A DNA stretch of 39,004 nucleotides from contig JALTAZ010000105.1 of assembly GCA_027075555.1 (NCBI GenBank), forward strand, positions 1 through 39,004, given 5' to 3'. Source of the DNA: Micavibrio sp. GTDB taxonomy: Bacteria > Pseudomonadota > Alphaproteobacteria > Micavibrionales > Micavibrionaceae. How positions within the stretch are numbered: the first letter of the stretch is position 1; every line of letters begins with the position of its first letter. A program made the translations under genes and the position numbers. Shown piece by piece: positions 920 to 17,072 of the stretch. The notes beneath the pieces are model-generated. The model saw nothing but the letters and a program-made list of their open reading frames with translations, was not told the origin of the DNA and ran no database searches.

Positions 920-1678
920 TTAAGGGGCGAATTGCTCTTGGTAGATTCGTTCTTCTAGGTGGTTTTCGGGATCAAATAGGAGGGTCGCAGATATGTTGCG
1001 CTCTTCTTTTATTTCAACATAAGATATGTTGCGTACCTCTGTTGTATCGGCAGAGGCACTTACTGCGCGTTCTTTTGGTCTAATAATCTCAAATCTTACT
1101 GATGCGGTATTGGGCAGTAATGCACCAGACCAACGCCGAGGGCGAAACGCACTGATAGGAGTAAGAGGCAAAACATTTGCATTTAATGGAACAATAGGAC
1201 CATCAGCAGAGGAGTTATAAGCAGTACTTCCCACGGGGGTAGATAGCATTATTCCATCACAAACTAGCAAGGGCAGGCGCACTTCATTATTTACAAACAC
1301 CATAATTTGCGCTGAGCTATGAGTTTGGCGTAGTAACGAAACCTCATTATAAGCCAAAGCGCTATATTGCTTATCATTTATATCTGTAGCATTCATTCGC
1401 AGCGGGTGGATTTCATATTTATTGGCTTTTGATATACGTTCTACTAAATCAGATCTTTTATATTCATTGAGCAAAAAACCAAGCGTTCCAAGGTTAAGGC
1501 CAAATAGAGGAAGGTTAGAATTTGTAAAATTATGCAAGGCACGAAGCATCGCTCCATCACCGCCTAGAACCACGATAACATCGGCGCTGTCTATATCATG
1601 TTGTTGATATTTTTCTGTAAATTCACGATATGCTGCTTGGGGTCTTGGATTATCAGAGGCATGGAAATGTATTTTCAT
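920..1678 (-). CDS. nadK: NAD kinase
   Basis: NAD kinase phosphorylates NAD to NADP and sets the cytosolic NADP pool. The catalytic GGDG motif is at residues 39-42, followed by NLGTLGFL at 62-69, a conserved NE pair at 111-112 and the glycine-rich STPVGSTAYN nucleotide-binding stretch at 146-155. The length of 252 residues is normal for the short alphaproteobacterial type. It lies 50 bases downstream of the pyrE fusion gene on the same strand with no obvious terminator between, so the two are probably cotranscribed. Confidence 0.95.
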   Translation of the reverse strand: MKIHFHASDNPRPQAAYREFTEKYQQHDIDSADVIVVLGGDGAMLRALHNFTNSNLPLFGLNLGTLGFLLNEYKRSDLVERISKANKYEIHPLRMNATDINDKQYSALAYNEVSLLRQTHSSAQIMVFVNNEVRLPLLVCDGIMLSTPVGSTAYNSSADGPIVPLNANVLPLTPISAFRPRRWSGALLPNTASVRFEIIRPKERAVSASADTTEVRNISYVEIKEERNISATLLFDPENHLEERIYQEQFAP

Positions 1679-1728: not shown

Positions 1729-2655
1729 TTAATTATGATGCTCTTGCCATTTTATTGGATCATCAAGAAATGATTCAACAGATTGCAGGGTCTGTGCATC
1801 AAAATAGTTATTTTTCCTAGCTATTTCCAAAACACTCCACCATGTGGTTAATGCGTGTAGATTTATTCCTATTTTTTCCATATTTTGTTTGCTGGCTTTA
1901 AATATGCCATAATGGAATATAACAAAGGCATGATTGACTTTTGCTCCGGCTTTACGCAAGGCTTTGACAAAAATTTCTTTACTACCTCCATCTGTTTGTA
2001 AATCCTCAATCAAGATAACATTAGGTTTTTTATTTTCGCTATTTTTCTTTTGTAAATATCCTTCAATTTGTGCCATACGACCATAGCCCTTAGGCTCTTT
2101 ACGCACATATATCATGGGTTTATTAAGGCGATCCGAAATGAAAGAGCAATAGGGGATTCCTGCCGTTTCACCACCTGCTAGCATATCAATTTTATCAATT
2201 CCAATTTCCGATCTTATTAAAGTTGCAGCATCATTCATAAGGGCGTTACGCTCTTCTACAAAGGAGATTAAACGACGACAGTCAATATATACAGGGCTTT
2301 TCTTGCCAGATTTAAGGGTAAAAGGCTCTTTAGTATTAAATAAAACTGCTTCGGTTTCTATTAGAGCTTTAGCAGCTCTTATAGCAATTTCTTTTTTCTC
2401 GATATCGCTTAAGGATTTTTGCGGGGCATCACCAATTAAGGCAATAAATTCTGACATTGTAGAATCTGTAACGGCTAGAACTTTGGCAATGCTTTCGGTT
2501 GAAGGCCATCGCGGTTTACCATCGGGGCTGATGCGCTTGCTTTTGTTAAAAGATGTTGCATCAAGCCCTGCTTGTTTGGCTAATCCCGAAGGTGAGTAAC
2601 CTTTTGCGCTCGCCAAATTATCTAGACCTTGCCATATTTGTGCGTGTGTAAACAT
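1729..2655 (-). CDS. pyrE: HTH domain fused to orotate phosphoribosyltransferase
   Basis: Orotate phosphoribosyltransferase makes OMP from orotate and PRPP in pyrimidine synthesis. Residues about 88-308 form a complete alphaproteobacterial-type enzyme: YIDCRRLISF at 123-132, AGGETAGIP at 160-168, the YVRKEPKGYGR loop at 183-193, the PRPP-binding ILIEDLQTDGGS at 214-225 and the typical end with TWWSVLE and WQ. Residues 1-75 are not part of that enzyme. They match the N-terminal helix-turn-helix of S24/LexA-like repressors of alphaproteobacteria, with SPSGLAKQAGLDATSFNKSK at 21-40 and RWPSTESIAKVL at 49-60. The S24 protease part is absent and the enzyme follows after a linker of roughly 12 residues. 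The reading frame is open throughout. M67 could be an internal start for a near-normal enzyme, but I see no ribosome site before it. The start ATG is preceded by TGGATAA. The fusion is seen directly; that it binds DNA or regulates is inference. Confidence 0.92.
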   Translation of the reverse strand: MFTHAQIWQGLDNLASAKGYSPSGLAKQAGLDATSFNKSKRISPDGKPRWPSTESIAKVLAVTDSTMSEFIALIGDAPQKSLSDIEKKEIAIRAAKALIETEAVLFNTKEPFTLKSGKKSPVYIDCRRLISFVEERNALMNDAATLIRSEIGIDKIDMLAGGETAGIPYCSFISDRLNKPMIYVRKEPKGYGRMAQIEGYLQKKNSENKKPNVILIEDLQTDGGSKEIFVKALRKAGAKVNHAFVIFHYGIFKASKQNMEKIGINLHALTTWWSVLEIARKNNYFDAQTLQSVESFLDDPIKWQEHHN

Positions 2656-2676: not shown

Positions 2677-2690
2677 CTATCTTAGGATAG
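2677..2690. promoter_or_regulatory. palindrome upstream of pyrE fusion, candidate operator
   Basis: CTATC-TTAG-GATAG is a perfect 5-base inverted repeat with a 4-base centre, 22 bases before the pyrE fusion start codon and in the region shared with the divergent phage-type operon. The size suits a dimeric helix-turn-helix protein, so the HTH-PyrE product is an obvious candidate ligand for autoregulation. No second copy of the full palindrome was noticed in the window. The role is inferred from position. Confidence 0.35.
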
Positions 2691-2742
2691 TAATCCCATT
2701 TATGTCTCAAAAGGTAAATAGGAAATTATTCTTAAATTTTTC

Positions 2743-2771
2743 TTGACTTTGAATATCCCTTATACCATAAA
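2743..2771 (+). promoter_or_regulatory. sigma70-like promoter of the virion operon
   Basis: TTGACT at 2743-2748 and CATAAA at 2766-2771 are separated by exactly 17 bases, a good match to the sigma70 consensus. It is the best promoter upstream of the first gene of the phage-type operon (start 2855) and leaves a leader of about 75 bases. The LexA box at 2775-2789 begins 3 bases after the -10 element and would cover the transcription start. Confidence 0.55.
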
Positions 2772-2774: not shown

Positions 2775-2789
2775 GAACATAAAGGGAAC
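2775..2789. promoter_or_regulatory. LexA (SOS) box, GAAC-N7-GAAC
   Basis: GAAC-ATAAAGG-GAAC is a perfect direct repeat with a 7-base spacer. On the other strand it reads GTTC-N7-GTTC, the known LexA-binding sequence of alphaproteobacteria, which is a direct repeat and not a palindrome. It sits just after the -10 element of the promoter at 2743-2771, the usual place for a repressor that blocks initiation. I found no second exact match in the other intergenic regions I checked by eye. Chance occurrence of 8 fixed bases is possible, but the position makes a real site likely. Confidence 0.6.
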
Positions 2790-2854: not shown

Positions 2855-3337
2855 ATGAAGGATAAAAATAAAGACAAACAAATGCAGAAAAATAAGGGTG
2901 CTGATAAAAATGAAGGCATTCCATTTGATACAATAGAAGATCTTTGGTTTTGGTTTATAATGGCACAGCAGGCTCGTAATGACGGAGCGCGTTATATATC
3001 TGGTGCTGGGCTGATTCCTCGCCCTTGTGAGCCTGTGGATATTTTAAAGATTCTTGATGATTTGTATCGCAAGCGCAGATTGCTTAGAGAGCATCTTCTT
3101 GTTTTGCGACATTACGGGCGCAGACATCTTGCTCCTGATCCAAATCGTGTAAAAGAAGTTAGGTCTTATTATTTGTGGAAAGATGCTCTAGAGCGTATGC
3201 GCCCTGTGTTAGAGCGTAAGGGCATAATTCAAAAAAGGGATAGGCTATCTCAATATATTAATGCAGGAGAAGGCTATGGCGTACAAACATTATTTCCTAA
3301 TCTAGATTTAGGTAATGACGGGGCGCGAATGCAATGA
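2855..3337 (+). CDS. unrecognised first gene of the virion operon
   Basis: A 160-residue soluble protein without a signal peptide or membrane segment. The first 20 residues are very lysine-rich, then comes an aromatic segment (DLWFWFIMAQQ near 30-40) and a strongly basic helical part (KRRLLREHLLVLRHYGRRH near 73-91), which could bind nucleic acid. It is the first gene after the LexA-box promoter and overlaps the next start by 4 bases (ATGA), so translation is probably coupled. I do not recognise the family. A small-terminase or regulatory role is possible from position and basic character only. Confidence 0.75.
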   Translation: MKDKNKDKQMQKNKGADKNEGIPFDTIEDLWFWFIMAQQARNDGARYISGAGLIPRPCEPVDILKILDDLYRKRRLLREHLLVLRHYGRRHLAPDPNRVKEVRSYYLWKDALERMRPVLERKGIIQKRDRLSQYINAGEGYGVQTLFPNLDLGNDGARMQ

Positions 3338-3774
3338 CTAAAAGCCCTGAATTTGTTAATATTGGCGCTATATATTCACAAAAAGCGTGGCTGGTTTTTA
3401 CTAATCAAACACAATTGCCATGGCTAAGATTTTTTAAAAAAGGTTTTCGCCATTGCTTTGTAATTATCCATGATGGTAATAGCTGGATTAGTATTGATCC
3501 TATGGCAAATTATATGGAGGTCATAGCCCATGATTTGCCTAAAGGCTTTGACTTGCCTAAATGGTTAGAAAATCGTGGTCATAGCGTGATAAGCGCAAGC
3601 CTAACCCGCAACATTAATCGCAGCGCACCAATCATGATTTTCACATGCGTTGAGGCATGTAAGCGCATATTAGGCATTCATAAATGGAACATTTTCACGC
3701 CTTGGCAGCTTTACAAATATCTAGATCTACAAACACAGCAAAAAATTCAAGCAAATATAAATAAAAGAGGATAA
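3334..3774 (+). CDS. possible permuted papain-like (NlpC/P60-type) protein
   Basis: A 146-residue protein with no membrane segment. The layout resembles permuted NlpC/P60 or papain-fold domains: a GFRHCFVII stretch placing His40 early, a tryptophan and aspartate (W51, D55) on the following strands, and a later FTCVEACKRILGI segment with Cys105 at the start of a helix, ending in FTPWQLYKYL. In that fold His precedes Cys. If correct it could be a cysteine hydrolase, for example acting on a peptide or lipid bond during particle release, but it may equally be a structural protein. It is coupled to the gene before it by a 4-base overlap, and the next gene starts 6 bases after its stop. The fold assignment is inference from pattern only. 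Confidence 0.75.
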   Translation: MTKSPEFVNIGAIYSQKAWLVFTNQTQLPWLRFFKKGFRHCFVIIHDGNSWISIDPMANYMEVIAHDLPKGFDLPKWLENRGHSVISASLTRNINRSAPIMIFTCVEACKRILGIHKWNIFTPWQLYKYLDLQTQQKIQANINKRG

Positions 3775-3779
3775 TTGTC

Positions 3780-4049
3780 ATGGGAAGTTTAATCTCAACA
3801 CCAAAAGCCCCCAAAAGCCAACCTATTCAAGTGATCCAAACTCGTGAAATCGCTTCTACGGCTAAAATACAAGAGCAAAAGCCCCTTGAAAATAGTGCTG
3901 CGCGCAAACAAGAAGAGCAATCACAAAAGCGCATAAAAAGCTTGCTATCACGTGGTCGCGGCCGTTTTGGCACTATTGCTACTGGCTTGCGTGGCTTTTT
4001 ACAAGAAGCCAATAAAAACAGCGCAAGAAAAACTCTCTTAGGTGAATAG
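3780..4049 (+). CDS. small phage protein preceding the portal gene
   Basis: An 89-residue basic, low-complexity protein: a Pro/Lys-rich start, a Gln/Glu-rich middle and a conserved-looking end with LLSRGRGRFGTIATGLRG at about 55-72 and RKTLLGE at the C terminus. Small proteins with this 'RGR-GTI-TG ... KTLLG' ending are common just upstream of portal genes in podovirus-type and other phages. Their function is not established to my knowledge. A good ribosome site (GAGGA) precedes the ATG. Confidence 0.8.
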   Translation: MGSLISTPKAPKSQPIQVIQTREIASTAKIQEQKPLENSAARKQEEQSQKRIKSLLSRGRGRFGTIATGLRGFLQEANKNSARKTLLGE

Positions 4050-4116
4050 ATATATAGATATGTGGTGAATAAATAGCGGGTAAATAAACATAAAAAAACA
4101 AAAAGGATTTTAAAAA

Positions 4117-5652
4117 ATGATAGTAGAAAATAGTAAAACTCAAGATGAAAATCTCGATATAAAAATATTGCTAGAGCGTTATAATAGCGCAAAAAAGTAC
4201 CGTGATGTATGGAATAAGTTATGGGAAGATTGCTATGATTATGCTCTGCCACAGCGAGGAGGATTTAATGGTGATATCGGCATAGGTCAGGCGCGCACGA
4301 ATAAAATATATGATGCAACCGCGCTAGATGCTGCTGATCAGCTTGCAGCAAGTTTAATGGGGAATTTAACCCCCGCTTGGTCACAGTGGTTTGGATTAAA
4401 AGCTGGCCCAGATTTATCACCAAGCGAAGCCGATGCGCTTGCCCCTGTATTAGAGCAAGTATCAAGAACCATTCAGGCACATTTTGATAGCTCTAATTTT
4501 GCAGTAGAAATTCATCAATGCTATCTTGATTTAGTGGTTGGCGGTACGGCTAGCTTGTCATTTGAAGAATCCGAAGTAGGTGAGTCTTCGGCATTTAATT
4601 TCCGCGCTATAGCTCTAAAAAACACGATATTAGAGGAGGGCGCATCAGGATATCTTGATGGATCATATACTATTTACCCCATGAATTTAGATCAGCTCAG
4701 CTCGCGCTATCCTTTTGCACAAATTCCAAGTAGCATTTTAAAACAAGCTGCTAAAGATCCTCAATCTCGCTTTGATGTGTTAGAAGCAGTGCTACCTAAG
4801 GGATTATCTTATGATTATAATGCAATTTTAATACATGATGAAAATGAGCCTGTAGTCCTACATAGCGGGAGTTTTTCAAACTCACCAATAATAAATTTTC
4901 GCTGGTCAAAATCACCATCAGAAATTTACGGGCGTTCACCAGTTATGAAGGCTTTGCCTGATATTAAAACTGCAAATAAGGTAGTAGAGCTTATATTAAA
5001 AAATGCCTCTATTGCGGTTACTGGAATTTGGCAGGCCGATGATGATGGGGTTTTAAACCCCGCGAATATAGAGCTAACACCAGGGAGTATTATCCCAAAA
5101 GCTATAGGATCAAAAGGCTTACAACCATTAGAAATGCCAGGGCGTTTTGATGTATCGCAGCTAGTTCTTGATAATTTGCAAAGTCGGATTCGTCATGCAC
5201 TGCTAGCAGATAAATTATTACCCGTAGCCAATGCAGGTAAAATGAGCGCTACAGAAGTTATCGAACGCTCAGCAGAGATGTCACTTATATTAGGTGCAAC
5301 TTATGGGCGCTTGCAAGTAGAGCTTTTAAACCCCCTTATTAAGCGCGCATTTTCGATTTTACGCAGGCGTGGTGAAGTTCCTGATATTTTGCTTGATGGG
5401 CGTATGGTGATAGTTGATTATCGCTCTCCACTTGCTAGAGCGCAAGGACAGCGCAATGTACAAAATACCCTAAGTTGGATTTCATCAGTTATGGCCATGG
5501 GTTCAGAGGCATCTTTATCTATAAATCTTCCTGAAACTGCGCGCTTTTTAGGTGAAGCAATGGCAGTGCCTAGTGATCTTATCCGCAGCGAAACTATTCT
5601 TGATTTAGATAAGGTTAAGACCATTACCGAAGAAACTATATCAAATCAATAA
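4117..5652 (+). CDS. portal (head-tail connector) protein
   Basis: Podovirus-type portal, related to T7 gp8-like head-tail connectors. It forms the dodecameric ring at the capsid vertex through which DNA is packaged and ejected, and it anchors the tail. Typical features of the 511-residue chain are the N-terminal YNSAKKYRDVWNKLWEDCYDY helix region near 24-44, the LPQRGG and IYDATALDAADQLAASLMGN segment after it, YGRSPVMKALPDIKTANK in the middle and the MSATEVIERS helix near 385. Length is normal for the family. AAGGA lies upstream of the ATG. It is followed after 37 bases by the scaffold gene. Confidence 0.93.
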   Translation: MIVENSKTQDENLDIKILLERYNSAKKYRDVWNKLWEDCYDYALPQRGGFNGDIGIGQARTNKIYDATALDAADQLAASLMGNLTPAWSQWFGLKAGPDLSPSEADALAPVLEQVSRTIQAHFDSSNFAVEIHQCYLDLVVGGTASLSFEESEVGESSAFNFRAIALKNTILEEGASGYLDGSYTIYPMNLDQLSSRYPFAQIPSSILKQAAKDPQSRFDVLEAVLPKGLSYDYNAILIHDENEPVVLHSGSFSNSPIINFRWSKSPSEIYGRSPVMKALPDIKTANKVVELILKNASIAVTGIWQADDDGVLNPANIELTPGSIIPKAIGSKGLQPLEMPGRFDVSQLVLDNLQSRIRHALLADKLLPVANAGKMSATEVIERSAEMSLILGATYGRLQVELLNPLIKRAFSILRRRGEVPDILLDGRMVIVDYRSPLARAQGQRNVQNTLSWISSVMAMGSEASLSINLPETARFLGEAMAVPSDLIRSETILDLDKVKTITEETISNQ

Positions 5653-5689
5653 TCACAACCAATAATCACAACCAAAAGGAGTATCCAAT

Positions 5690-6352
5690 ATGAGCGATAA
5701 TTTAAATGACCAAAAAGATGAAAATCTTTTGAGCGCTGATATACCAGAAAAATTCAAAGATTCTAAAACCGGTGAATTAAGGCTTGATATGATGGTAAAG
5801 TCATATAAAGAGCTAGAGCGAAGATTATCACAAATGCCAAAGCCACCAAAATCCCATGAGGATTACTGCATTATTTGTGATCATGGTTTGTTCAAACCAG
5901 ACGAGCAGGTAAATAAACGCCTTCATGATATGGGCTTTACGCAAGAGCAAGCTCAAACTGTTTATGATCTTGCCGCAGAAAAAATGATTCCAATGATTCA
6001 TGATATAGCCACAGATTATAATGCAGATAGAGAAGTGGAAAAGCTTATCAATCATTTTGGTGGAGCGCAGCAATGGAAAGAAATATCGCGCCAGCTTTTA
6101 GCGTTTGGGCAAAAAAGCTTGCCCGCAGATGTTTTGGATAATCTTTCAAGCTCTTATGAAGGTGTGCTTGCTTTATATCGCATGATGAAAGGTGTAGAGC
6201 CAAAATTAAACCGCAATAATTCCGCCATAGAAGGGGGGCTAGGAGAGAAAGAGTTATCCTCTATGATGCGCGATCCTAGATATTGGCGCGACAAAGATCC
6301 GGCCTTTATTGCCAAGGTCACGCAGGGTTTTCAAAACATATATGGTAAATAA
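5690..6352 (+). CDS. capsid scaffolding / assembly protein
   Basis: A 220-residue soluble, charged, helical protein between portal and major capsid, the normal place of the scaffold that organises procapsid assembly and is later expelled. The N terminus has IPEKFKDSKTGELRLDMMVKS near 19-39, a pattern I associate with phage scaffold proteins ('IPEKF ... dG ... lvkSY'), and the middle holds KSYKELERRLSQM. The end WRDKDPAFIAKVTQGFQNIY also fits. AAGGAG precedes the ATG. Assignment rests on this pattern and on gene order. Confidence 0.85.
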   Translation: MSDNLNDQKDENLLSADIPEKFKDSKTGELRLDMMVKSYKELERRLSQMPKPPKSHEDYCIICDHGLFKPDEQVNKRLHDMGFTQEQAQTVYDLAAEKMIPMIHDIATDYNADREVEKLINHFGGAQQWKEISRQLLAFGQKSLPADVLDNLSSSYEGVLALYRMMKGVEPKLNRNNSAIEGGLGEKELSSMMRDPRYWRDKDPAFIAKVTQGFQNIYGK

Positions 6353-6386
6353 AATTTTTATATATTAATTATGACTAACACAAAAT

Positions 6387-6414
6387 ATTATGCCTGCTTT
6401 TTAGTGGGCATAAT
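6387..6414. terminator. hairpin between scaffold and PilZ genes
   Basis: ATTATGCC and GGCATAAT form a perfect 8-base stem with a 12-base loop. It lies between two genes that point at each other (scaffold and PilZ). The U-tracts on either side are weak, so it may be a poor bidirectional terminator or an mRNA end-stabilising structure. Confidence 0.45.
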
Positions 6415-6445
6415 TTAAAAGGCATAATAATAGTATATATAAAAT

Positions 6446-6829
6446 TTATGATTGTGACTTGGCAAAGCGCTGTGCGACGTAGTCATCGACTACTTTTTGG
6501 AATTTTGCTTGAACACTTTTTGACAAGGGTAAATATTCCAAAGCAACCTTTCCTGGAACTTTACGTACAACTTTAGCTTTATGGTCAATTTCCATAATCT
6601 CATCACAGAGCTTGAATTTCAAGGTAAAGTTACATTCTTGATCGATGGCAAATAGACGCTCATCAGTGGCGATAAGCATTCCACCATTGCTCCAATTCTC
6701 AACAGGGTGCATCTGGCCGTTAATAATGCTTACGCAGCGATCATCAGAGCGCCTCGCATGCTGTCTATTTCTTTGAATGAGGTTATTTTTATCCTCAATC
6801 CCAGGAGATGATATTATTTTACCAAACAT
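6446..6829 (-). CDS. PilZ-domain protein inside the virion gene cluster
   Basis: A 127-residue soluble protein with the two hallmarks of PilZ cyclic-di-GMP receptors: RRSDDR at 26-31, giving RxxxR at R27/R31, and NWSNGG at 45-50, matching the (D/N)xSxxG motif. The remaining beta-rich part (MLIATDERLFAIDQ, FTLKFKL, HKAKVVRKVPGKVALEYL) fits a single small PilZ barrel. It lies on the reverse strand between the scaffold and major capsid genes, interrupting an otherwise forward cluster, so it looks like acquired cargo. It could link particle production or host motility to cyclic-di-GMP. A host-like PilZ gene stranded by rearrangement is another explanation. Ligand binding is inferred from motifs. 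Confidence 0.88.
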   Translation of the reverse strand: MFGKIISSPGIEDKNNLIQRNRQHARRSDDRCVSIINGQMHPVENWSNGGMLIATDERLFAIDQECNFTLKFKLCDEIMEIDHKAKVVRKVPGKVALEYLPLSKSVQAKFQKVVDDYVAQRFAKSQS

Positions 6830-7190
6830 ATTTTCTCTTTTGTATAAAGCCGTTTATGAGAACAAAGTAATATAAATTTTTGTCGAAATTAAGGCATTGT
6901 TAACTTTTTGTTAAAAATACCCACAGAAATGAATTTTTTACTTGACATTATAGGAATAAAAACCTATTAGTGTATTACCAACGCCATAATTGCGAATTTT
7001 TGTTGCCAGTAATTTAAGCATCTAAGATTACCGTTATTATTTTTACAGAAAACGCATAAGTAAAATCATTTTGCGCCTGTAAGGGCTTTGTTCATATCCG
7101 ACGTTAGGTCTTTTTAACAAGGCAACCAAAAGCGGATTTCTTTCACTTTCACTTTTAACTTTAACTTTTACAAAGAAATGAGGTTTACGT
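6830..7190. other. 361-base regulatory gap before the major capsid gene
   Basis: No gene is visible here. It contains the 5' side of the reverse-strand PilZ gene, the forward promoter at 6942-6970 and a long leader. Just before the capsid ribosome site, about 7137-7172, there is a pyrimidine-rich stretch made of repeated CTTTCA/CTTTAA words; such unstructured U/C-rich leaders can favour ribosome loading on highly expressed mRNAs. No tRNA or attachment-site pattern was seen. Confidence 0.5.
6942..6970 (+). promoter_or_regulatory. promoter with internal inverted repeat, major capsid gene
   Basis: TTGACA (6942-6947) and TATTAG (6965-6970) are 17 bases apart. Within the spacer and -10 element lies an inverted repeat, ATAGG at 6950-6954 and CCTAT at 6963-6967, with an 8-base gap, which looks like a repressor site. 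The word TAGGAA at 6951 also occurs twice in the pyrE/virion control region (2719 and 2772). It would give the capsid gene its own regulated transcript with a leader of over 200 bases. Confidence 0.5.
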
Positions 7191-8024
7191 ATGTCTACTA
7201 CGATAGATCAGGCTTTTATAAAGCAATTTGAACGCGAAGTTCATGAGGCCTACCAACGTCAGGGATCAAAACTTAGAAACACTGTTCGAACAATATCAAA
7301 TGTCAGTGGTTCTGCTGCGGTTTTTCAAAAGGTTGGAAAAGGAACGGCAAGCACGAAATCAACTAATAGCATGGTTCCAGTGATGAATTTAGATCATACA
7401 AGTATTGAAGTTGTATTAAGCGATTATTATGCAGGGGATTGGATTGATCGCCTTGATGAGCTGAAAATCAATATTGATGAACGTCAGGTAATTGCAAATG
7501 CTGGTGCTAATGCTTTGGGTCGTAAAACTGATGAGCTGATTATAAATGCTTTATCAGGGGCAAACTCTCAAGTTATTGCTGATGGTAATATTGGTATGAC
7601 CAAGGATAAAATCCTAAGCGCATTTGAAACTTTTGGCGAAAATGATGTTCCAGATGATAATATGCGTTTTTGCGTTGTTGGCTGGAAACAATGGAGTGAT
7701 ATGCTCTCAATAGATGAGTTTGTTAATGCCGATTATATTGGTGCGGATAACTTGCCATTTGCGGGAATTACTCAAGCCAAGATGTTCCTAGGGACAATTT
7801 TTGTTCCTCATTCAGGCTTGCCAATTGATGCAAATGATATTCGCTCTTGCTTTTATTATCATAAAACAGCCATTGGTCACGCCGCGGCAAGTGAAGTGCA
7901 AACCGATATTTCATGGCATGGCGATAGGGCATCTCATTTTGTTAATAACATGATGAGCCAAGGTGCTGGTCTAATTGATGAGAGCGGTGTAGTCGTAATT
8001 AACTGTGATGAAACCCCAGATTAA
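7191..8024 (+). CDS. major capsid protein
   Basis: A 277-residue protein in the expected place after portal and scaffold, resembling phage capsid proteins of podovirus-type elements in alphaproteobacteria. Recognisable parts are the N-terminal FIKQFEREVHEAYQRQGSKL helix near 9-28, the DYYAGDWIDRLDELK region near 79-93, IGADNLPFAGITQAKMFLG in the second half and the C-terminal VQTDISWHGDRASHFVNN motif, typical of these shells where the last strand packs against the core. No large N-terminal scaffold domain is fused, consistent with the separate scaffold gene. GAGG precedes the ATG. Confidence 0.9.
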   Translation: MSTTIDQAFIKQFEREVHEAYQRQGSKLRNTVRTISNVSGSAAVFQKVGKGTASTKSTNSMVPVMNLDHTSIEVVLSDYYAGDWIDRLDELKINIDERQVIANAGANALGRKTDELIINALSGANSQVIADGNIGMTKDKILSAFETFGENDVPDDNMRFCVVGWKQWSDMLSIDEFVNADYIGADNLPFAGITQAKMFLGTIFVPHSGLPIDANDIRSCFYYHKTAIGHAAASEVQTDISWHGDRASHFVNNMMSQGAGLIDESGVVVINCDETPD

Positions 8025-8058
8025 GTTAAGTGCCTTTATTTTCATACAGTTAACTTAA
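8021..8058 (+). other. hairpin overlapping the capsid stop codon
   Basis: TTAAGTTAA (8021-8029) and TTAACTTAA (8050-8058) form a perfect 9-base stem with a 20-base loop, starting at the capsid stop codon. It lacks a following U-run, so it is more likely an mRNA stabilising or processing element than a terminator. A related repeat, AAGTTAAG/CTTAACTT, occurs at 8444-8473. Confidence 0.4.
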
Positions 8059-8086
8059 AACAAACCCAAATTTAAGGAGATAAATC

Positions 8087-8326
8087 ATGGCTTTCATAGC
8101 ATCTGATTTAAGCGTACTTGCATATGCAAATAACTTTACTTTATGGCATTATACAAGCACAGATAACACCATAGAAACAGCAGATTATTTTAACCCCGCG
8201 GCTTCTATGCTTAATGTTAATGATTTGATTATTGCCAATATCGATACCGATGGTAGTCCCTTGACGAAATTTTATATAGTCACAGGTAATAGCAGCGGCA
8301 GCATCACTGTCACGGTTTATACATAA
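8087..8326 (+). CDS. small capsid-region protein, possible decoration protein
   Basis: A 79-residue protein without signal or membrane segment, with the pattern MAFIASDLSVLAYANNFTLW at the start, then YFNPAASMLNVNDLIIAN and a Thr/Ser/Val-rich end. Small proteins of this kind often follow the major capsid gene in phages and prophages; I associate them with head decoration or head completion but know no proven function. It follows the capsid gene by 62 bases and has an AAGGAG ribosome site. Confidence 0.85.
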   Translation: MAFIASDLSVLAYANNFTLWHYTSTDNTIETADYFNPAASMLNVNDLIIANIDTDGSPLTKFYIVTGNSSGSITVTVYT

Positions 8327-8516
8327 TGATTTATATTTACCTTTATATTTATCTATGTGTAAAAATCCGTTTTTTCAAAAATAAAATGGAGTAGTTTTGT
8401 TCATTCCTTTGCCTCCAGAGTGAGTGCTGTATAAAGGCTTATCAAGTTAAGCGCATGTTCCTTCCCTTAACTTTACGCGCTTGTCTTTTTGCTGCTTTTA
8501 TTTTCATCGGATAGGC

Positions 8517-8563
8517 GCAGCCACAGCTCATATATAATTGGGTTGTGGCTGCTGCTTTTTTTT
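8517..8563 (+). terminator. strong intrinsic terminator after the capsid unit
   Basis: GCAGCCACA (8517-8525) and TGTGGCTGC (8544-8552) form a perfect 9-base GC-rich stem, followed by TGC and eight T residues. It closes the capsid transcript before the tail genes. The rest of the 283-base gap from 8327 to 8609 holds only an inverted repeat (8444-8473) and no gene. Confidence 0.85.
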
Positions 8564-8609
8564 ATGGTCGGGTTTTTTTTAAATATAAATATTTTAAGGA
8601 GAGTTAAAA

Positions 8610-9179
8610 ATGGCATTATCAGATATTGATTTATGCGCTAAAGCGTTAATAAAAATTGGAGCTGCGCCAATTACTAGTTTTGACGATGGCACAGCCGAAA
8701 GCGAGATAGCAGGTGCTCTATATCCACAAGTAAAAGACGCGTTACTTTCTGCCTATGGGTGGAGCTTTGCTAGCGAACAAGTTGAGCTAGACAGGCTGGC
8801 AAATGCACCATTAGTCGATTATAATTATGCCTATCAGTTGCCAGATGATTTCCTAAGAGCATTAAGCGCAGGGAGCGGAGCACGCGGGCGCGGTCTTAAT
8901 TATCGTATTGCTGCGGGTGCACTTCACAGTAATGCATCAGAAGTAGTGCTCAGCTATATTTTCCGCCCCGATGAATCGGCATTCCCGCCATATTTTGATT
9001 CTGCCCTTATAACAAGATTAGCCGCAGAATTTACAATTCCTGTAACGGAGAATACCTCACGCTATGAAACCATGGTAAGGCTTGCTGAGCGCGAATTTGG
9101 GCTTGCTCGTCAAATAGATGCACAACAAGATACGCCTTCACATATAGAGGACTTCACCCTTATTCAAGTGCGTGATTAG
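8610..9179 (+). CDS. tail tubular protein A (gp11-like adaptor)
   Basis: A 189-residue protein of the T7 gp11-like tail tubular A family, the ring that joins the portal to the tail nozzle. Typical start SDIDLCAKALIKIGAAPITS with DGTAES, then AYGWSFA near 50 and the YQLPDDFLRAL motif near 76-86. The C-terminal half, with RLAAEFTIPVTENTS and LAEREFGLARQIDAQQ, also fits. AAGGAG lies upstream. It follows a strong terminator, so transcription must restart before it, although I see no clear promoter in the short gap. Confidence 0.92.
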   Translation: MALSDIDLCAKALIKIGAAPITSFDDGTAESEIAGALYPQVKDALLSAYGWSFASEQVELDRLANAPLVDYNYAYQLPDDFLRALSAGSGARGRGLNYRIAAGALHSNASEVVLSYIFRPDESAFPPYFDSALITRLAAEFTIPVTENTSRYETMVRLAEREFGLARQIDAQQDTPSHIEDFTLIQVRD

Positions 9180-9187
9180 AGCTTTTC

Positions 9188-9217
9188 TTGACGTTCATCT
9201 TTTTAATGGTATATAAT
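9188..9217 (+). promoter_or_regulatory. near-consensus promoter of the acidic-protein gene
   Basis: TTGACG (9188-9193) and a perfect TATAAT (9212-9217) are separated by 18 bases. This is among the best sigma70-type promoters in the window. It starts 9 bases after the tail gene stop and would serve the short acidic gene, and perhaps the tail tubular B gene by read-through. Confidence 0.75.
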
Positions 9218-9251
9218 AGTTCCACATTTGGGAAATATAAGGATAATAGTC

Positions 9252-9608
9252 ATGGGTATGAATGATATAGGCGCTCTGGGTGATGAGTGGGATATGGAAG
9301 CTTACGGGGATATTCCTTCTTATGAGGGTGATGCCGTCGTAGTGCAAGAAGCAGATATTAGTGATGTTAAGAGCGATGTTATTGGTGCTGATGCTGCTAG
9401 TTTTGAGGTGTTAGAAGGTCAAAATCCCATAGCTGGCGATGCTGATTCAGTTGATGATTTGATAGTTGATGGAACTTACCTGCTCAAAGAGTTATTGGAT
9501 AAAATAGCAGATGCCGCGCAGGAAGTCGCTGCATTCCTTGAGGTAAACCCACAAGAGGAAGTTCTAGAAGCCGTATATGATTATGGTGAGGATTTTGCCC
9601 CAGTATAA
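9252..9608 (+). CDS. very acidic small protein, cargo-like gene
   Basis: A 118-residue soluble protein with 31 Asp/Glu, only 3 Lys and no Arg by my count, net charge about -28. There is no signal peptide, membrane segment or recognised domain; the C-terminal half looks helical (LKELLDKIADAAQEVAAFLE). An upstream TTG at 9228 would lengthen it, but the ATG at 9252 follows AAGGATAA and the promoter spacing favours it. The gene has its own strong promoter and own terminator, unlike the tail genes on either side, the usual layout of phage morons. Such charge is typical of DNA-mimic inhibitors but also of assembly chaperones. I do not recognise it and assign no function. Confidence 0.75.
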   Translation: MGMNDIGALGDEWDMEAYGDIPSYEGDAVVVQEADISDVKSDVIGADAASFEVLEGQNPIAGDADSVDDLIVDGTYLLKELLDKIADAAQEVAAFLEVNPQEEVLEAVYDYGEDFAPV

Positions 9609-9678
9609 GATCTGCTATATGTAGTATATTGATGTGTAAATATATATTGTAGATACAAGATTTAAAAGTTAAGCGAAT

Positions 9679-9705
9679 AAATTAAATTAAATTAAATTAA
9701 ATAAT
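9679..9705. repeat. AAATT pentamer repeat
   Basis: About five copies of a 5-base AAATT unit lie between the acidic gene and the terminator at 9722. It is a simple-sequence repeat in non-coding DNA; no effect on a reading frame is expected. Confidence 0.6.
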
Positions 9706-9721
9706 AAATGTTGATACGAAG

Positions 9722-9746
9722 ACCCGCATTTTGTGTGGGTTTTTTT
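9722..9746 (+). terminator. intrinsic terminator after the acidic gene
   Basis: ACCCGCA (9722-9728) and TGTGGGT (9734-9740) form a 7-base stem with one G-U pair and a 5-base loop, followed by a run of T. It separates the acidic gene from tail tubular protein B. Confidence 0.85.
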
Positions 9747-9786
9747 GTGCTTTATTTGCCTTAAATAAAAAATATAAGGAAATATC

Positions 9787-11736
9787 ATGACAAGAATTAG
9801 AGATATAAAAACCACCTTCACAGCGGGGCAGGTAAGCCGTGATCTGCTTGGGCGCGGGGATTTACGTGCCTATGATAATGGCGCACTTATGCTCAAAAAT
9901 GTATTTATAAATCCTACTGGTGGGGTAAAAAGACGTTTTGGCATGAGATATATTGATAATGCACCAGGCTTAGGAAAGTTGATAGCTTTTGAATTTAATT
10001 CAGAGCAAACCGCGCTGCTTGTCATAACTGATGGGCAGATTGATATATATTCCAGCGGGGTAAAAGAAACAACTATCACAACGCCTTGGAATGCAGGACA
10101 GATAGATCAAATAGCATGGACACAAAGCGCAGATACGTTGTTGCTTGTTCACCCTGAAACGCCGCCAAAAAAGCTTGTGCGCTCGCTAGGGGGGATATGG
10201 GTTTTAAGTGATTGGGAATATTTCACGCAAGATGATATAATATTCCAGCCCTTTTTTAAATTCGCCGATAGCGCAGTAACTCTTAGACCTAGCGAAACTC
10301 AAGGAGCAATAACTATAACCGCATCATCTGATGTGTTTGAAGCAGGGCATGAAGGAACGCGCTTGCGCTTGCGCGGAATTGATATTGATGTAACTGATTT
10401 TGTATCCCCAACGGTGGTAAATGCAAATGTTATTCCTAAGATTAATCCAGATTATGATCCCAATATCACAGGCAGCGAGCAAATTTTATATCTTCCTGAT
10501 ACAAAACCAAGCATAGATTGGCTTGAGCAGGCATTCTCACCTGTACGCGGTTATCCTTCAACCGTGGCTTTTCATCAAGACAGGCTGGTAATTGGCGGCA
10601 GTCGTGACTTGCCAAATCGCTTATGGTTTTCAAAATCAGGGGATTTATTTAATTTTGATTTAGGAACTGGGCTTGATGATGAGGCCATAGAATTTTCTAT
10701 ACTTTCCGATCAGGTTAATGCAGTGCGCGGGGTATTTTCATCGCGTCATTTGCAGGTTTTTACCAGTGGCGCAGAATGGATGGTAACGGGCGAGCCTCTT
10801 ACTCCCTCTCAGGTTCAGATCAGACGGCAAACTCGCATAGGATCACGTATTGATCGCTATATACCTCCGCTTAATGTTGATGGGGCAACTTTATATTGTG
10901 CGCGAAGTGGAAATGAGATTTACGAATTTTTATATACAGATTTAGAAGCGGCCTATGCCTCCACCGATCTAGCGTTGCTATCCCGTGATATTGTAGGAGT
11001 GCCAATAGATCAGGATTATGATGCCAAGAACCGATTGTTATTTGTAGTGCGTGAAGATGGTAAATTTGCCACTCTTACTGTTTTTAGAGCTGAAAAAGTA
11101 TCCGCATGGACAAGCCACGAAACAAACGGATTGGTAAAATCCGTAGCCGTTGTTGGAGATGATGTTTATATGCTAATAGAGCGTGATAGCAATTATTTGA
11201 TTGAACAGCTTGATAGCGCCTTTTATTTAGATAGCGCATTATCGGGTCAGGTGGGCTCTCCTGCAACTACATGGTCGGGGCTAGATCATCTAGAAGGGCA
11301 AAGTGTTTCCATTATTGCCGATGGAGCAGTGATGCAAAATCAAGTGGTGCAAAACGGGTCAGTGACCTTAAGTGAAGCTGTATCATCGGTGCAAATTGGG
11401 CTTTCTTATACTCATGTAATAGAGCCACTTCCCCCCAATGAGGTTGGGCGCATTGGCGCAGGGCGAAAAATACGCCTTATTGAGGCAATATTTCGCCTAA
11501 AAGAAAGCGCAGCCCTTAGGGTTGATGTTGGCAGGGGATTAAAGGATATTCCGCTTAAAGATTTTGATAATAATATAATTTCAGACCAACCAAACCCGTT
11601 GATAAGTGGTGATGTACGTGTACGTGCCATTGGTTGGCAAAAAGAGGGGAGCTCTGCGCTTTGGCGTATAGAGCAGGAATTGCCGCTGGCTTTTACATTA
11701 TTATCAGTGGCAACAGAAATTAAAGTTAATGATTAA
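9787..11736 (+). CDS. tail tubular protein B (gp12-like nozzle)
   Basis: A 649-residue protein of the T7 gp12-like tail nozzle family. The start is diagnostic: FTAGQVSRDLLGRGDLRAYD at about 12-31, then NVFINPTGGVKRRFGMRYID. Later landmarks are GYPSTVAFHQDRLVIGGS near 256-273 (the typical 'fhQdRLvfaGs' block), FSSRHLQVFTSGAEWMV and the RQTRIGSRI block near 345-353. Length is in the lower normal range. AAGGA precedes the ATG. It is followed after 15 bases by the gp14-like gene, so the two are one operon. Confidence 0.93.
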   Translation: MTRIRDIKTTFTAGQVSRDLLGRGDLRAYDNGALMLKNVFINPTGGVKRRFGMRYIDNAPGLGKLIAFEFNSEQTALLVITDGQIDIYSSGVKETTITTPWNAGQIDQIAWTQSADTLLLVHPETPPKKLVRSLGGIWVLSDWEYFTQDDIIFQPFFKFADSAVTLRPSETQGAITITASSDVFEAGHEGTRLRLRGIDIDVTDFVSPTVVNANVIPKINPDYDPNITGSEQILYLPDTKPSIDWLEQAFSPVRGYPSTVAFHQDRLVIGGSRDLPNRLWFSKSGDLFNFDLGTGLDDEAIEFSILSDQVNAVRGVFSSRHLQVFTSGAEWMVTGEPLTPSQVQIRRQTRIGSRIDRYIPPLNVDGATLYCARSGNEIYEFLYTDLEAAYASTDLALLSRDIVGVPIDQDYDAKNRLLFVVREDGKFATLTVFRAEKVSAWTSHETNGLVKSVAVVGDDVYMLIERDSNYLIEQLDSAFYLDSALSGQVGSPATTWSGLDHLEGQSVSIIADGAVMQNQVVQNGSVTLSEAVSSVQIGLSYTHVIEPLPPNEVGRIGAGRKIRLIEAIFRLKESAALRVDVGRGLKDIPLKDFDNNIISDQPNPLISGDVRVRAIGWQKEGSSALWRIEQELPLAFTLLSVATEIKVND

Positions 11737-11751
11737 ACAGGAGAAAATATC

Positions 11752-12246
11752 ATGGCAGCAATTACGCCTATATTAACATCAGCATTGGTAAGTCAGGGGG
11801 TTGGTCTGGCTGTATCTGAGTTTTCACGCAGAAAAAAACAAGATCAATCACTTAAACAATTACGCCAGCGTCAAGATCTGAACCAGAAAATCGCAGAACA
11901 AAATGCACAGCAAAGCCGAGAACGTATTGCCATAGATGCGCGCCAAATTGAAGAAAAGCGCAAAAGGGCATTACGCCGCGCAGTATCACGTCAACGCGCT
12001 AATTTTGCAGCGCAAGGAGTTGGATCTGGCGTTGGTTCATCACAAGCAGTATTGCTAGGGCTGTTTGAGCAAAGCGATGAGGAAAAAGCGCAGCGAGAGG
12101 ATCTGGATAATTTGCGCCTAAATTCTATAGATCAAAATCTATCTCAAAGAGCATCTCTCAATATTTTACAACGTACCCAATTAGAGCAGAAAAATAACTT
12201 GCGTAATTTATCGGCAATAGGCAACGATATTACCGATTTATTGTAA
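11752..12246 (+). CDS. internal virion protein, gp14-like
   Basis: A 164-residue protein with a hydrophobic N-terminal segment (ITPILTSALVSQGVGLAVSE) and a long basic, Gln/Arg-rich helical part (residues about 25-90), then a glycine stretch GVGSGVGSSQAVLLGLFEQS near 100-119 and a final helix. This layout matches internal virion proteins of podovirus-type phages that are ejected into the host envelope. It is the only such protein here; no large gp15/gp16-like ejection gene or transglycosylase-containing core protein follows. Confidence 0.85.
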   Translation: MAAITPILTSALVSQGVGLAVSEFSRRKKQDQSLKQLRQRQDLNQKIAEQNAQQSRERIAIDARQIEEKRKRALRRAVSRQRANFAAQGVGSGVGSSQAVLLGLFEQSDEEKAQREDLDNLRLNSIDQNLSQRASLNILQRTQLEQKNNLRNLSAIGNDITDLL

Positions 12247-12260
12247 TAAAAATTAAATCA

Positions 12261-12290
12261 TTGAATTATATTTGTATTTTAAGGTACTAT
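12261..12290 (+). promoter_or_regulatory. promoter of the 187-residue gene
   Basis: TTGAAT (12261-12266) and TACTAT (12285-12290) with 18 bases between. Only 7 bases separate the -10 element from the ATG at 12298, so the transcript would be leaderless or nearly so. AAGG at 12281 is too far from the ATG to be a normal ribosome site, which agrees with a leaderless message. Moderate match. Confidence 0.45.
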
Positions 12291-12297
12291 ATACAGC

Positions 12298-12861: not shown

Positions 12862-12889
12862 CCATTTGATACAAATATATAAATTTAGC

Positions 12890-12918: not shown

Positions 12919-12960
12919 GTTTTTTCATTCCCCCATTGTTTTTTAGTAGGAGTTTCATAA

Positions 12961-13269: not shown

Positions 13270-13296
13270 TCAAATAAAAATAAAATGAGGTAAATT

Positions 13297-14784
13297 ATGT
13301 CGAATTATGCGATTGAAGGCGCACAGTTTAAACTTTTTGCTGTGCTATGGAATCAGCAACAAGAGCGCAAAACGCCACATATACATTTGAAAATGGCGCA
13401 TTGGCTGGAAAAATCATGGGCAAATGGTGACAAACGCTTGTTGCTTATGGCTTTTAGATCAGCGGGTAAAAGCACAATTGTTGGGTTGTTTGCAGCGTGG
13501 TTAATTTACCAAAATCCTAATATCCGTATTTTGGTATTAGCAGCGGATTTTACGCTTGCAAAAAAGATGGTAAGGAATGTAAAGCGTATAATAGAGCGCC
13601 ATCCCTTAACCACGCATCTTAAACCCAAAGCTATAGACCAATGGGCATCAGATCGCTTTACAGTAAATAGAGAGTTAGAGCTGCGCGATCCTTCTATGAT
13701 GGCAAAGGGGGTCGGATCCAATATTACAGGAAGCCGCGCTGATATTGTGATTTGTGATGATGTTGAAGTCCCCAATACTTGTGATAGCGCGACAAAGCGT
13801 GAAGATTTGCGCGAGCGCTTATTAGAGATTTCTTATGTTCTGGTTTCAGGAGGAACGCAGCTTTATGTAGGTACGCCCCACGATTATTACTCTATTTATG
13901 CCGATGTGCCACGCAGTGAAATTGGTGAGGAGTTCCCATTTCTTGATGGTTTTAAACGCTTATCCCTGCCGATAATTGATGAAAATAACGAGATTGCGTG
14001 GAAAGAGCGCTATAGCAATGATGATATAGAGCAAATAAAAAAAAATTCAGGACCAAATAAGTTTGAAAGCCAGATGATGCTAAAGCCTGTAAATATCATG
14101 CAAGGGCGGCTTAATCCCGATTTACTGCAAATTTATGATGATATGCTGGAATATGATCCAATATTGGGAAGCTTATTCATAGGGCATCATAAAATGATTA
14201 GCGCATCTTGCTGGTGGGATCCTGCTTTTGGCTCTGCAAAAGGCGATAGCAGCGTTCTAGCGGTTATATTTGCCAATGAAGGCGGGGATTATTTTTTGCA
14301 TCATCTTGAATATATTTGTGTAAATGAACATGATAAAATTGATGAAGCAACCCAACAAGCAATTATAGTTGCAGAGCTTGCCAAAGAGCTGTACTTGCCA
14401 TGTATATCGGTTGAAACTAATGGTATAGGGCGGTTTTTGCCCAATATATTGCGTAATAAATTAGCAAATATAAATGCACAAACAAGGGTGATGGAGCAAA
14501 ACTCTACTAAACCTAAAGCGGTACGAATTATCGAAGGGTTTGATGCGATTATGGCGGCAAAGAGGCTATATGTTAATAGGGCGGTTCTAAATACCCCCTT
14601 TATGATGGAAATGCGCGAATGGCGACCATCTGTGAAAGGCGCGGCCGATGATGGGCTAGATGCAGTTGCAGGGGCATTATCACAGCAACCCGATCGTTTA
14701 GAGCGCAAATACACAAGCGCAAATATATATAATTGGCAACAAGGCGCACAATCCCATACCGCTAAAAGTGACTTTGATGTTTGA
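13297..14784 (+). CDS. terminase large subunit
   Basis: The DNA-packaging motor ATPase and nuclease, 495 residues. The ATPase half has a Walker A-like FRSAGKST at 53-60 and a Walker B IVICDDVE at 150-157, after the GSRADI stretch. The RNase H-like nuclease half has the expected acidic residues: WWDPAFG with D308, VETNG with E373 and DDGLDAVAGAL with D451/D452/D455. All key residues are present, so the enzyme is probably intact. It resembles the podovirus-type large terminases that occur at the end of the structural cluster. A terminator follows at 14855. Confidence 0.94.
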   Translation: MSNYAIEGAQFKLFAVLWNQQQERKTPHIHLKMAHWLEKSWANGDKRLLLMAFRSAGKSTIVGLFAAWLIYQNPNIRILVLAADFTLAKKMVRNVKRIIERHPLTTHLKPKAIDQWASDRFTVNRELELRDPSMMAKGVGSNITGSRADIVICDDVEVPNTCDSATKREDLRERLLEISYVLVSGGTQLYVGTPHDYYSIYADVPRSEIGEEFPFLDGFKRLSLPIIDENNEIAWKERYSNDDIEQIKKNSGPNKFESQMMLKPVNIMQGRLNPDLLQIYDDMLEYDPILGSLFIGHHKMISASCWWDPAFGSAKGDSSVLAVIFANEGGDYFLHHLEYICVNEHDKIDEATQQAIIVAELAKELYLPCISVETNGIGRFLPNILRNKLANINAQTRVMEQNSTKPKAVRIIEGFDAIMAAKRLYVNRAVLNTPFMMEMREWRPSVKGAADDGLDAVAGALSQQPDRLERKYTSANIYNWQQGAQSHTAKSDFDV

Positions 14785-16003: not shown

Positions 16004-16495
16004 ATGAAAGATAAATCAAACCTTTATGACCTTAAATCACGCAAAAATATAGGCGGTGATAAATCTATGAGTGATTTTTACGATGATATTACCATAGATG
16101 TTTTGGCGCGCACCCTTTGGGGAGAAGCGCGCGGCGAGGGTGCTCGCGGTATGATTGGTGTTGCTAATGTTGTGCTTAACCGCGTTAGAATAGCAAAAGA
16201 AAAGGGTAAATTCTGGTGGGGTAATAATATTATTCAAGTTTGCCAAAAGCCATATCAGTTCTCATGCTGGAATCGCTCTGACCCTAATTTTAAAAAGCTT
16301 CAAAATATAGGGATTGAGGATAAGCATTTCGCCAAAGCGGTAGAAATAGCAAGGCTCGCAACGGCAGGGCAGCTAGAAGATTTAACCCGTGGAAGCACCC
16401 ATTATCACGCAAAGGAAATTAAGCCTTATTGGGCGCGTGCAAAAGACCCAATAGCGGTTATTGGTTCACACATTTTTTATCGCTTAGTGGATTAA
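16004..16495 (+). CDS. cell wall hydrolase, SleB type
   Basis: A 163-residue peptidoglycan hydrolase of the SleB/Hydrolase_2 family, acting as the endolysin of the cassette. The catalytic region is TLWGEARGE at 38-45 with E41 as likely acid, followed by GVANVVLNRV, the QPYQFSCW-like KPYQFSCW segment and the final THYHAK motif. There is no signal peptide, so export to the wall would depend on the 3TM holin downstream. The ATG at 16004 follows AGGAGAA; a later Met at residue 22 is possible but has no such site. Confidence 0.93.
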   Translation: MKDKSNLYDLKSRKNIGGDKSMSDFYDDITIDVLARTLWGEARGEGARGMIGVANVVLNRVRIAKEKGKFWWGNNIIQVCQKPYQFSCWNRSDPNFKKLQNIGIEDKHFAKAVEIARLATAGQLEDLTRGSTHYHAKEIKPYWARAKDPIAVIGSHIFYRLVD

Positions 16496-16550: not shown

Positions 16551-17072
16551 ATGTTATCATCTTTATTATCAAAAATTGGTTTACCTATATTGGTCACGGT
16601 TTTGGGCGGGACGTTAGAATCCATAGATAACCCCGTGGCTAAAAGCGCGTCAAAGGCTTTATCAAAAGTTGATGAGCTTATTAAAAATGGCGGGATTTCA
16701 CCCGAACAACTTGCTGAGGCTAATCGCCATACTGAAAAAATGGCAGAGCTTGAGTTAAAAAATTATCAAATCAACCTATCAGAAATCAATAAATCATTGC
16801 GTGCGGAGGTGGCTTCTGATGATAAATATGTACGGCGTATGCGCCCAACATTTGGTTATTTAATGGCATTTACTTGGGGCGCGCAGATGTTTGGCATTGC
16901 CTATGTAATTATTTTTGATACTGATAAAGCAGGCGTGGTTATGGCGGCGATGGGAAATTTAAGCGCGATTTGGGCCATTGGCTTATCTGTACTTGGCATT
17001 TATGTCTATAAACGCAGTGATGATAAAAAATCTCTGGCGCGTGATGTGATTTTCTGGAATCCTAAGCCTTAA
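16551..17072 (+). CDS. 3TM holin (GTA-holin family)
   Basis: A 173-residue membrane protein of the three-TM holin family first defined from gene transfer agents. Membrane segments are at about 5-20, 101-121 and 132-152, with a soluble helical part between TM1 and TM2 (EANRHTEKMAELELKNYQIN) and the conserved YVRRMRPTFGY at 93-103. It probably opens the inner membrane so that the hydrolase encoded just upstream can reach the wall. It is the last recognisable gene of the phage-type cassette. Confidence 0.92.
   Translation: MLSSLLSKIGLPILVTVLGGTLESIDNPVAKSASKALSKVDELIKNGGISPEQLAEANRHTEKMAELELKNYQINLSEINKSLRAEVASDDKYVRRMRPTFGYLMAFTWGAQMFGIAYVIIFDTDKAGVVMAAMGNLSAIWAIGLSVLGIYVYKRSDDKKSLARDVIFWNPKP

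Follow-up and report, generated by a model that had tools for sequence, protein, structure and literature searches.

A repressor-type helix-turn-helix domain fused to orotate phosphoribosyltransferase is a candidate regulator of a podovirus-like particle cluster in a Micavibrio lineage

The window, by which we mean the whole 39,004-nucleotide stretch of Micavibrio sp. contig JALTAZ010000105.1 (assembly GCA_027075555.1), carries on its minus strand a gene for a 308-aa protein (1729..2655), defined by its open reading frame, family match, relatives and predicted structure. Its product, HTH-PyrE, joins an XRE-type helix-turn-helix (HTH) domain (residues 1-74; 2434..2655, minus) to an orotate phosphoribosyltransferase (OPRT, PyrE) domain (residues 86-308; 1732..2400, minus). 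The gene lies between that of NAD kinase (920..1678, minus), a chromosomal neighbour often retained next to pyrE, and a divergent set of podovirus-like particle genes. As the initial annotation had read it, the frame is intact, starting with ATG and running without an internal stop through both domains. Residues 86-307 match the family model NF001729 at 302.7 bits (curated cut-off 245), and the OPRT domain matches the Burkholderia OPRTase of PDB 4ohc at 239.6 bits. Alignment with standalone PyrE proteins and 4ohc identifies RKEPKGYGR and EDLQTDGGSK in the fusion, which we take to be the OPRT catalytic-loop and PRPP motifs. Two other fused proteins have changed PRPP loops (EDLQNHGSS in G011, L060, and EDLQNFGHS in G012, L064, vs. 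EDLQTDGGS); despite these, neither genome gave a further strong PyrE match.

No Pfam model matched residues 1-74. They are 48-75% identical to the N-termini of HTH or HTH-S24 proteins of relatives, in agreement with the earlier assignment of this part to a repressor, and one such homologue (G055) matches PF00717 (S24) at 86 bits. An S24 domain with its Ser/Lys dyad and Ala-Gly site is absent from the fusion itself. The structure prediction proposed with the initial annotation was run: the AlphaFold model has a mean pLDDT of 89.2, with its minimum (66) in block 71-80, at the start of the linker. Submitted alone to Foldseek, the small helical HTH resembled HTH proteins of the C.BclI/C.AhdI/SinR type (TM 0.6-0.7, best E 5.9e-3), with no match at E <= 0.001. 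From codon 68 to codon 139 there is no ATG, GTG or TTG, which leaves PyrE without an obvious separate start downstream of the HTH; ATG67, at the HTH end, gives way to a non-Met codon in three or more of the fused proteins (G004, G006 and G011 among them). Across 16 fused proteins, mean identity is 76% in the HTH, 68% in PyrE and 23% in the linker.

On the plus strand, the virion operon opens with three genes without a family match, for proteins of 160 aa (2855..3337; no match in the phage collection either), 146 aa (3334..3774) and 89 aa (3780..4049), the last two conserved. Then follow genes for the portal or head-to-tail connector (4117..5652, PF12236), a T7-type capsid assembly (scaffold) protein (5690..6352, PF05396), the major capsid protein (7191..8024, PF19821 and phrog_3437), tail tubular proteins A-like (8610..9179, phrog_394) and B-like (9787..11736, phrog_376), the terminase large subunit (13297..14784, phrog_38 and PF17289), a cell wall hydrolase (16004..16495, PF07486) and a GTA_holin_3TM holin (16551..17072, PF11351, 41.5 bits against a cut-off of 24.8), whose family is named for the release of gene transfer agents (GTAs). 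Two minus-strand genes accompany the cluster: a PilZ-domain gene of c-di-GMP type between the scaffold and capsid genes (6446..6829), which has retained this place in many relatives, and a leucine-rich-repeat protein gene directly behind the holin (17212-18423). At the position of 11752-13269, all six annotated relatives carry a gene of about 674 aa, labelled fibre-like from its position; five of these are 53-78% identical to the sixth. A search within the window gave no significant match to it anywhere, and the gap holds a 187-aa open reading frame without a family match (12298-12861). Because the fibre-like gene is missing from the operon, particles made from the window may be defective, or else retargeted.

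We searched 58 genomes of the order (Micavibrionales), mostly MAGs and including the window's own. The HTH-PyrE protein was matched in 52, and the two-domain order for which the initial annotation had advised a database search was present at full length in 17. Chance, and a sequencing or assembly error, are ruled out as sources of the fusion by these 17 genomes. The match was absent from G007 and G008 of the window's genus (assemblies 84% and 76% complete). In a class-wide search of 385 genomes, the matches listed include the full-length fusion for 3 genomes, each belonging to the window's family. Three further candidates were rejected: G153, apparently a fusion outside the order, proved on its fetched sequence to be PyrE without the HTH, and in G014 and G037, whose open frames had suggested fusions, a stop divides HTH from PyrE. 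One MAG, OFTM66, contains two different fused loci (L038 and L039) on two contigs, either from two strains in one bin or from a true duplication. The IMG/VR ‘viral’ contig 3300032255_000163 (L173/L174), with HTH-PyrE at 91% and the capsid gene at 95%, is probably the chromosome of a close relative binned as a virus.

The accompanying check for a standalone PyrE gave a uniform result: in each of the 17 fused genomes the fusion is the single strong match to the pyrE family (about 85-118 bits, lowest 84.7; 6 of 17 pass the curated cut-off of 106.8). None of the remaining matches reaches 32 bits, and these presumably represent other phosphoribosyltransferases; pyrF, for OMP decarboxylase, was found in all 17. 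Since it is the sole strong PyrE match and pyrF is present, we infer that HTH-PyrE is the working pyrimidine enzyme of the cell. A prophage with an accessory enzyme gene is ruled out, as PyrE is the sole strong copy in the genome and the cluster keeps its position in relatives; PyrE is better read as the cell's own enzyme than as a phage accessory.

We read 38 neighbourhoods of relatives (15 fused, 23 unfused). The HTH gene is divergent to the cluster's portal gene in 31 of them, every fused region being among these, and two more divergent fused cases come from the window and record L032. The HTH of G035 lies 2.4 kb away from the operon, and the portal of G020 is split into two frames. pyrE was present in the stretch read in 17 of the 23 unfused regions. 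The HTH gene of unfused relatives exists in several states, namely intact HTH-S24, decayed S24, bare HTH, and HTH with pyrE adjacent or in frame. Judged by motifs, G019, G039, G043, G047, G049, G055 and G193 seem to have kept an intact S24 domain (G039 by eye, where the motif pattern was too strict). The domain is decayed in a further group and missing in G014, G020, G023 and G032, which have 72-104 residues left; G052 was left out, its HTH gene reaching the contig edge. In G023, a bare 83-residue HTH is followed by pyrE with 26 bases between the two matches, and in G037 pyrE lies in the same frame as the HTH, behind a stop. The likely path therefore runs from a self-cleaving repressor through decay of S24 to a bare HTH and then to read-through into pyrE. 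That an HTH-S24 or decayed repressor occupies the same divergent position in relatives supports the original reading of the HTH as that of the virion operon's repressor, with PyrE in place of S24. Separate genes in close relatives had been named as grounds against the fusion; they do exist, in sister lineages, and there they reveal how the fusion originated and do not refute it. These sequence comparisons show that, in one lineage, S24 was lost from the repressor of the virion operon and the HTH of that repressor was joined to the adjacent housekeeping PyrE.

The portal tree, from which G005, G020 and G039 were dropped for having portal proteins no longer than 450 aa, places the 15 fused rows in one clade (support 99/96). 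In the PyrE tree, 15 of 16 fused proteins group together, with G012 apart on a long branch that the bootstrap does not settle; in the RecA tree G012 is unresolved, and the fusion there needs two changes. We prefer a single origin, which is not proven, because every one of the 15 fused rows falls into a single group in the portal tree, and on the same ground we disfavour the several origins that the placement of G012 in the other two trees might suggest.

The intergenic region contains two putative operators, O1 (TAGGATAGTAATCCCA, 2683..2698) and O2 (TAGGAAATTATTCTTA, 2719..2734), 36 bp apart. A weak -10-like match for the repressor-enzyme gene (2725-2730) falls within O2; the scan that gave it yielded 3 promoter-like matches vs. 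1.3 in shuffles, hardly above chance. A putative virion promoter (TTGACT, 17 nt, CATAAA; 2743..2771, plus) was read by eye and was not reported by the scan. Close to the expected transcription start lies a LexA-type box, GAAC-N7-GAAC (2775..2789, plus).

We examined the promoters of 16 of the 17 fused genomes (G002 left out) and of 23 unfused ones. The operator consensus TAGGA-N6-TCCYA was drawn by eye from these very promoters, so that its enrichment in them is not independent: allowing two mismatches, it has 31 sites in the fused set (2.8 in shuffles) and 36 in the unfused set (3.5 in shuffles). The exact 36-bp pair, at the same stringency, is present in 16/16 fused and 10/23 unfused promoters, leaving 13 of 23 outside the fused clade without it. 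Counted from the start of O2, TTGAC follows at 22-25 bp in 16/16 fused promoters and the GAAC-N7-GAAC box at 54-57 bp in 15/16; the virion promoter of G021 has no exact box. Two tests were independent. The unchanged consensus (two mismatches allowed) had 26 sites vs. 2.7 expected in 21 class-wide promoters of HTH homologues adjoining the same cluster, with 17 of the 21 matched; all are from outside the order save G193, which belongs to the window's family. The GGAA-N4-TTCC repeat of RogA (see below), with up to one mismatch, had 15 sites vs. 2.0 in the fused set (13/16 promoters) and 22 vs. 3.2 in the unfused set (17/23), and none in two Maricaulis promoters of RogA-like genes.

The gene thus sits at a repressor's position facing a virion operon, as first proposed, and every fused promoter examined has the operator pair. 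These retained pairs, and a conservation of the HTH higher than that of any other part of the fusion, argue against the protein being simply PyrE with a harmless N-terminal extension. Such a remnant would be in keeping with the trimmed HTH genes of some unfused relatives, and DNA binding by the HTH is a prediction, but we find this account scarcely credible. A wider HTH-PyrE regulon was considered and rejected: the strict operator pattern, which would miss O2-like sites, occurs twice in the genome (once here) vs. three times for the reversed control.

The box at 2775..2789 is presumably a LexA motif. Among relatives it occurs in 22/30 lexA and 20/30 recA promoters (the best 30 of 51 and the best 30 of 54 genomes above the family cut-offs), compared with 9-11% of random windows. 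In the window genome, the recA promoter is without the box and the lexA promoter has a one-mismatch version. Exact matches to GAAC-N7-GAACR number 15 in this genome vs. 29 for the reversed control; such genome-wide counts are uninformative, so the promoters of relatives were used instead.

The virion genes have dN/dS values of 0.04-0.15 in intact, unsaturated pairs, and for nadK the two unsaturated pairs give 0.05 and 0.15, all of them rough values as dS is near saturation, and mostly above 1, in most pairs. Saturated pairs were dropped from the range, as was G043-G055 (0.265; the G043 capsid gene is broken). Given the low dN/dS, the operon seems to be still used and under selection. The capsid gene was matched in 40 of the 58 genomes of the order (E <= 0.001, counting fragments and two distant copies), and in 17/17 fused genomes with at least 79% identity. 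These data bear on whether the HTH serves pyrE only, with the virion operon incidental or silent. Autoregulation of pyrE alone could invoke the overlap of O2 with the weak pyrE-side -10-like match. However, the major capsid gene is kept in every fused genome, the virion genes have low dN/dS, and spacing on the virion side is nearly as strict as that between the operators; we regard this reading as very unlikely.

The cluster is endogenised, lying in the chromosome next to pyrE/nadK. It is split on one contig in G017 (L063), with the capsid gene about 78 kb from pyrE/HTH and the portal, and in G034 (L068), with the capsid gene about 34 kb from the HTH; in G029 and G030 it lies on another contig, and G028 was left out of this assessment, its HTH being 567 bases from the contig end. 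It is broken or mostly lost in G014, G019, G020, G043 and G047. Pairwise portal and RecA distances are correlated (r 0.69, 20 genomes; 0 of 5000 permutations as high), and the two trees have similar groups by eye. The cluster thus appears to be largely inherited vertically with the chromosome. GTAs are described, in the available text of a GTA paper (PMC9662315), as endogenised, often over several loci, and mostly vertically inherited with trees congruent with the host, and further as packaging and delivering random host DNA in a head too small for the element. Endogenisation and mostly vertical inheritance are both found here. Pfam recognised neither an integrase nor replication genes, the marks of a temperate prophage, in the 19 main open reading frames of 2855-17072; several small frames there are without any match, and the absence covers recognisable genes only. 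With its largely fixed place, low dN/dS and no recognisable integrase or replication genes, the cluster looks more like a GTA than an ordinary prophage, and we call it a candidate GTA from its genes alone. The phage context of the initial annotation therefore survives as to the virion genes; an ordinary prophage gives way to a largely vertical, GTA-like cluster that is order-wide and partly class-wide.

Across the class, the capsid protein was matched in 92 of 385 alphaproteobacterial genomes. In 57 the match covers almost the entire protein with at least 51% identity, some copies having internal stops (the 57 include the window's own genome and three of its family). We read 39 such regions (L257-L295), at least three of which end near the capsid gene (L267, L285 and L289). 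An HTH homologue is present in 21 of them, 19 times divergent and twice co-directional (G245 and G415), and 19 of the 21 have an S24 part. The cluster also occurs in at least 596 IMG/VR loci; among the 80 listed, many lie on contigs 12-14 kb long. It may possibly represent an unrecognised podovirus-like GTA family across the Alphaproteobacteria. The closest named phage among those listed is Pelagibacter phage EXVC031P Hodr (capsid 49%, portal 36% identity), and an unannotated fecal clone, MT838907, has 58% and 52%.

We think it probable that HTH-PyrE is a bifunctional trigger enzyme, in which PyrE replaces S24 and which represses both its own gene and the virion operon, with release by a ligand as the likeliest way out. 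Known OPRTases are homodimers. PyrE would accordingly take over the role of S24 as dimeriser, and the dimer would bind O1 and O2, the 16-bp inverted repeats lying between the divergent promoters. Once bound, it would repress its own gene, making pyrE autoregulated, together with the virion operon, on which LexA at the adjacent SOS box would be a second lock. With no self-cleaving domain in the fused repressor, and with the virion genes seemingly under selection, particle production should have an alternative release. Most likely, DNA binding would be lost once PRPP/orotate (or OMP) is bound to the enzyme, or once the enzyme becomes dilute, and opening of the operon would require DNA damage together with a suitable nucleotide state. 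The obvious candidate for release, with Bacillus PurR as the analogue, is PRPP, orotate or OMP; if the repressor role is right, we give such control of DNA binding roughly an even chance. The fullest version, a podovirus-like GTA family under RogA-type guard in which, in one Micavibrio-type lineage, HTH-PyrE senses PRPP/orotate at its active site and gates release together with LexA, is possible, though we hold it only tentatively.

A repressor-enzyme might also work without sensing a ligand. PyrE would then be a dimerising partner that ties the repressor's level to that of PyrE, with release through LexA cleavage and dilution or proteolysis. The operators, the autoregulatory layout and the LexA box are equally accounted for in this way. 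S24 catalytic residues are missing in many unfused relatives too, and in RogA as described in the available text (PMC9632790), so non-cleavable repressors exist without a phosphoribosyltransferase domain. Left unexplained is why an enzyme with its catalytic motifs was kept fused in 17/17 genomes, although the adjacency of pyrE could by chance account for a persistent fusion. Overall, we consider release without sensing rather unlikely, and favour the ligand-released trigger enzyme.

If the repressor-enzyme reading is true, the cell may couple particle production to nucleotide supply, and an HTH repressor welded to an enzyme with known ligands would be a concrete, testable candidate signal for GTA derepression. 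The relatives provide a step series for the domestication of a phage-type repressor, from intact S24 motifs through decayed S24 and bare HTH to fusion with a housekeeping enzyme. More broadly, the data point to a podovirus-like, possibly GTA-forming cluster in many alphaproteobacterial families, and the split clusters of G017 and G034 resemble those described for domesticated GTAs.

The genome paper on Micavibrio ARL-13, in the available part of its main text, does not mention capsid, orotate or prophage, and reports no extragenomic phage (PMC3189940). Among the matches listed in a literature search of titles and abstract starts, with few subscription journals, no paper dealt with an HTH fused to PyrE, with a GTA of Micavibrio or with an alphaproteobacterial GTA of podovirus-like type. 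PutA, BirA and NadR are trigger enzymes, in which an active enzyme is fused to a DNA-binding domain. HTH-PyrE would be like them in kind, with different enzymes and HTHs, and to our knowledge none of the three controls a virion gene cluster. In Bacillus PurR, PRPP inhibits DNA binding and the effector pocket is phosphoribosyltransferase-like, according to the available text (PMC8789054). The PurR pocket is purely regulatory as described there, whereas the domain here retains enzyme motifs and is the sole strong OPRT match; the likeness concerns the effector pocket.

With RcGTA-like and Bartonella GTAs, as far as these are described, the window cluster shares its nature as a vertically inherited alphaproteobacterial particle gene cluster. 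RcGTA particles have 49-nm tails in the available description (PMC9662315). Compared by description, the cluster is unlike RcGTA in that its portal, PF19821 capsid and tail tubular proteins match podovirus families. Hodr is a 34-kb phage record; the window cluster is about 14 kb long, and no replication genes were recognised in it. Faecalibacterium belongs to a different phylum from the window's host. Its FpGTA is GTA-like and is called the first with podovirus-like morphology, with encapsidated DNA reported (PMC12946183). The available part of that report does not mention a repressor-enzyme, and the podovirus-like cluster here is known from genes alone.

The closest parallel in control is RogA of Caulobacter crescentus (CCNA_00080), described in the available text as a GTA repressor with an N-terminal HTH and without key self-cleavage residues, which acts on gafYZ, the activators of the Caulobacter GTA, at promoters with two GGAA-N4-TTCC inverted repeats (PMC9632790). 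External cues likely trigger GTA synthesis there, possibly by inhibiting RogA or stimulating GafYZ (PMC9632790). Two Maricaulis loci (L050 and L051) encode a 208-aa HTH-S24 protein, RogA-like by description, with no catalytic Ser or Lys seen in the S24 part; no window cluster genes were matched in the available flanks. HTH-PyrE would resemble RogA in its N-terminal HTH, in repressing an alphaproteobacterial (here candidate) GTA and in the paired GGAA-N4-TTCC-like repeats at its predicted target promoter, a likeness of description and operator repeats. RogA, as described, keeps a C-terminal S24-like domain where HTH-PyrE has PyrE, and whereas RogA targets gafYZ, HTH-PyrE directly faces a podovirus-like virion operon.
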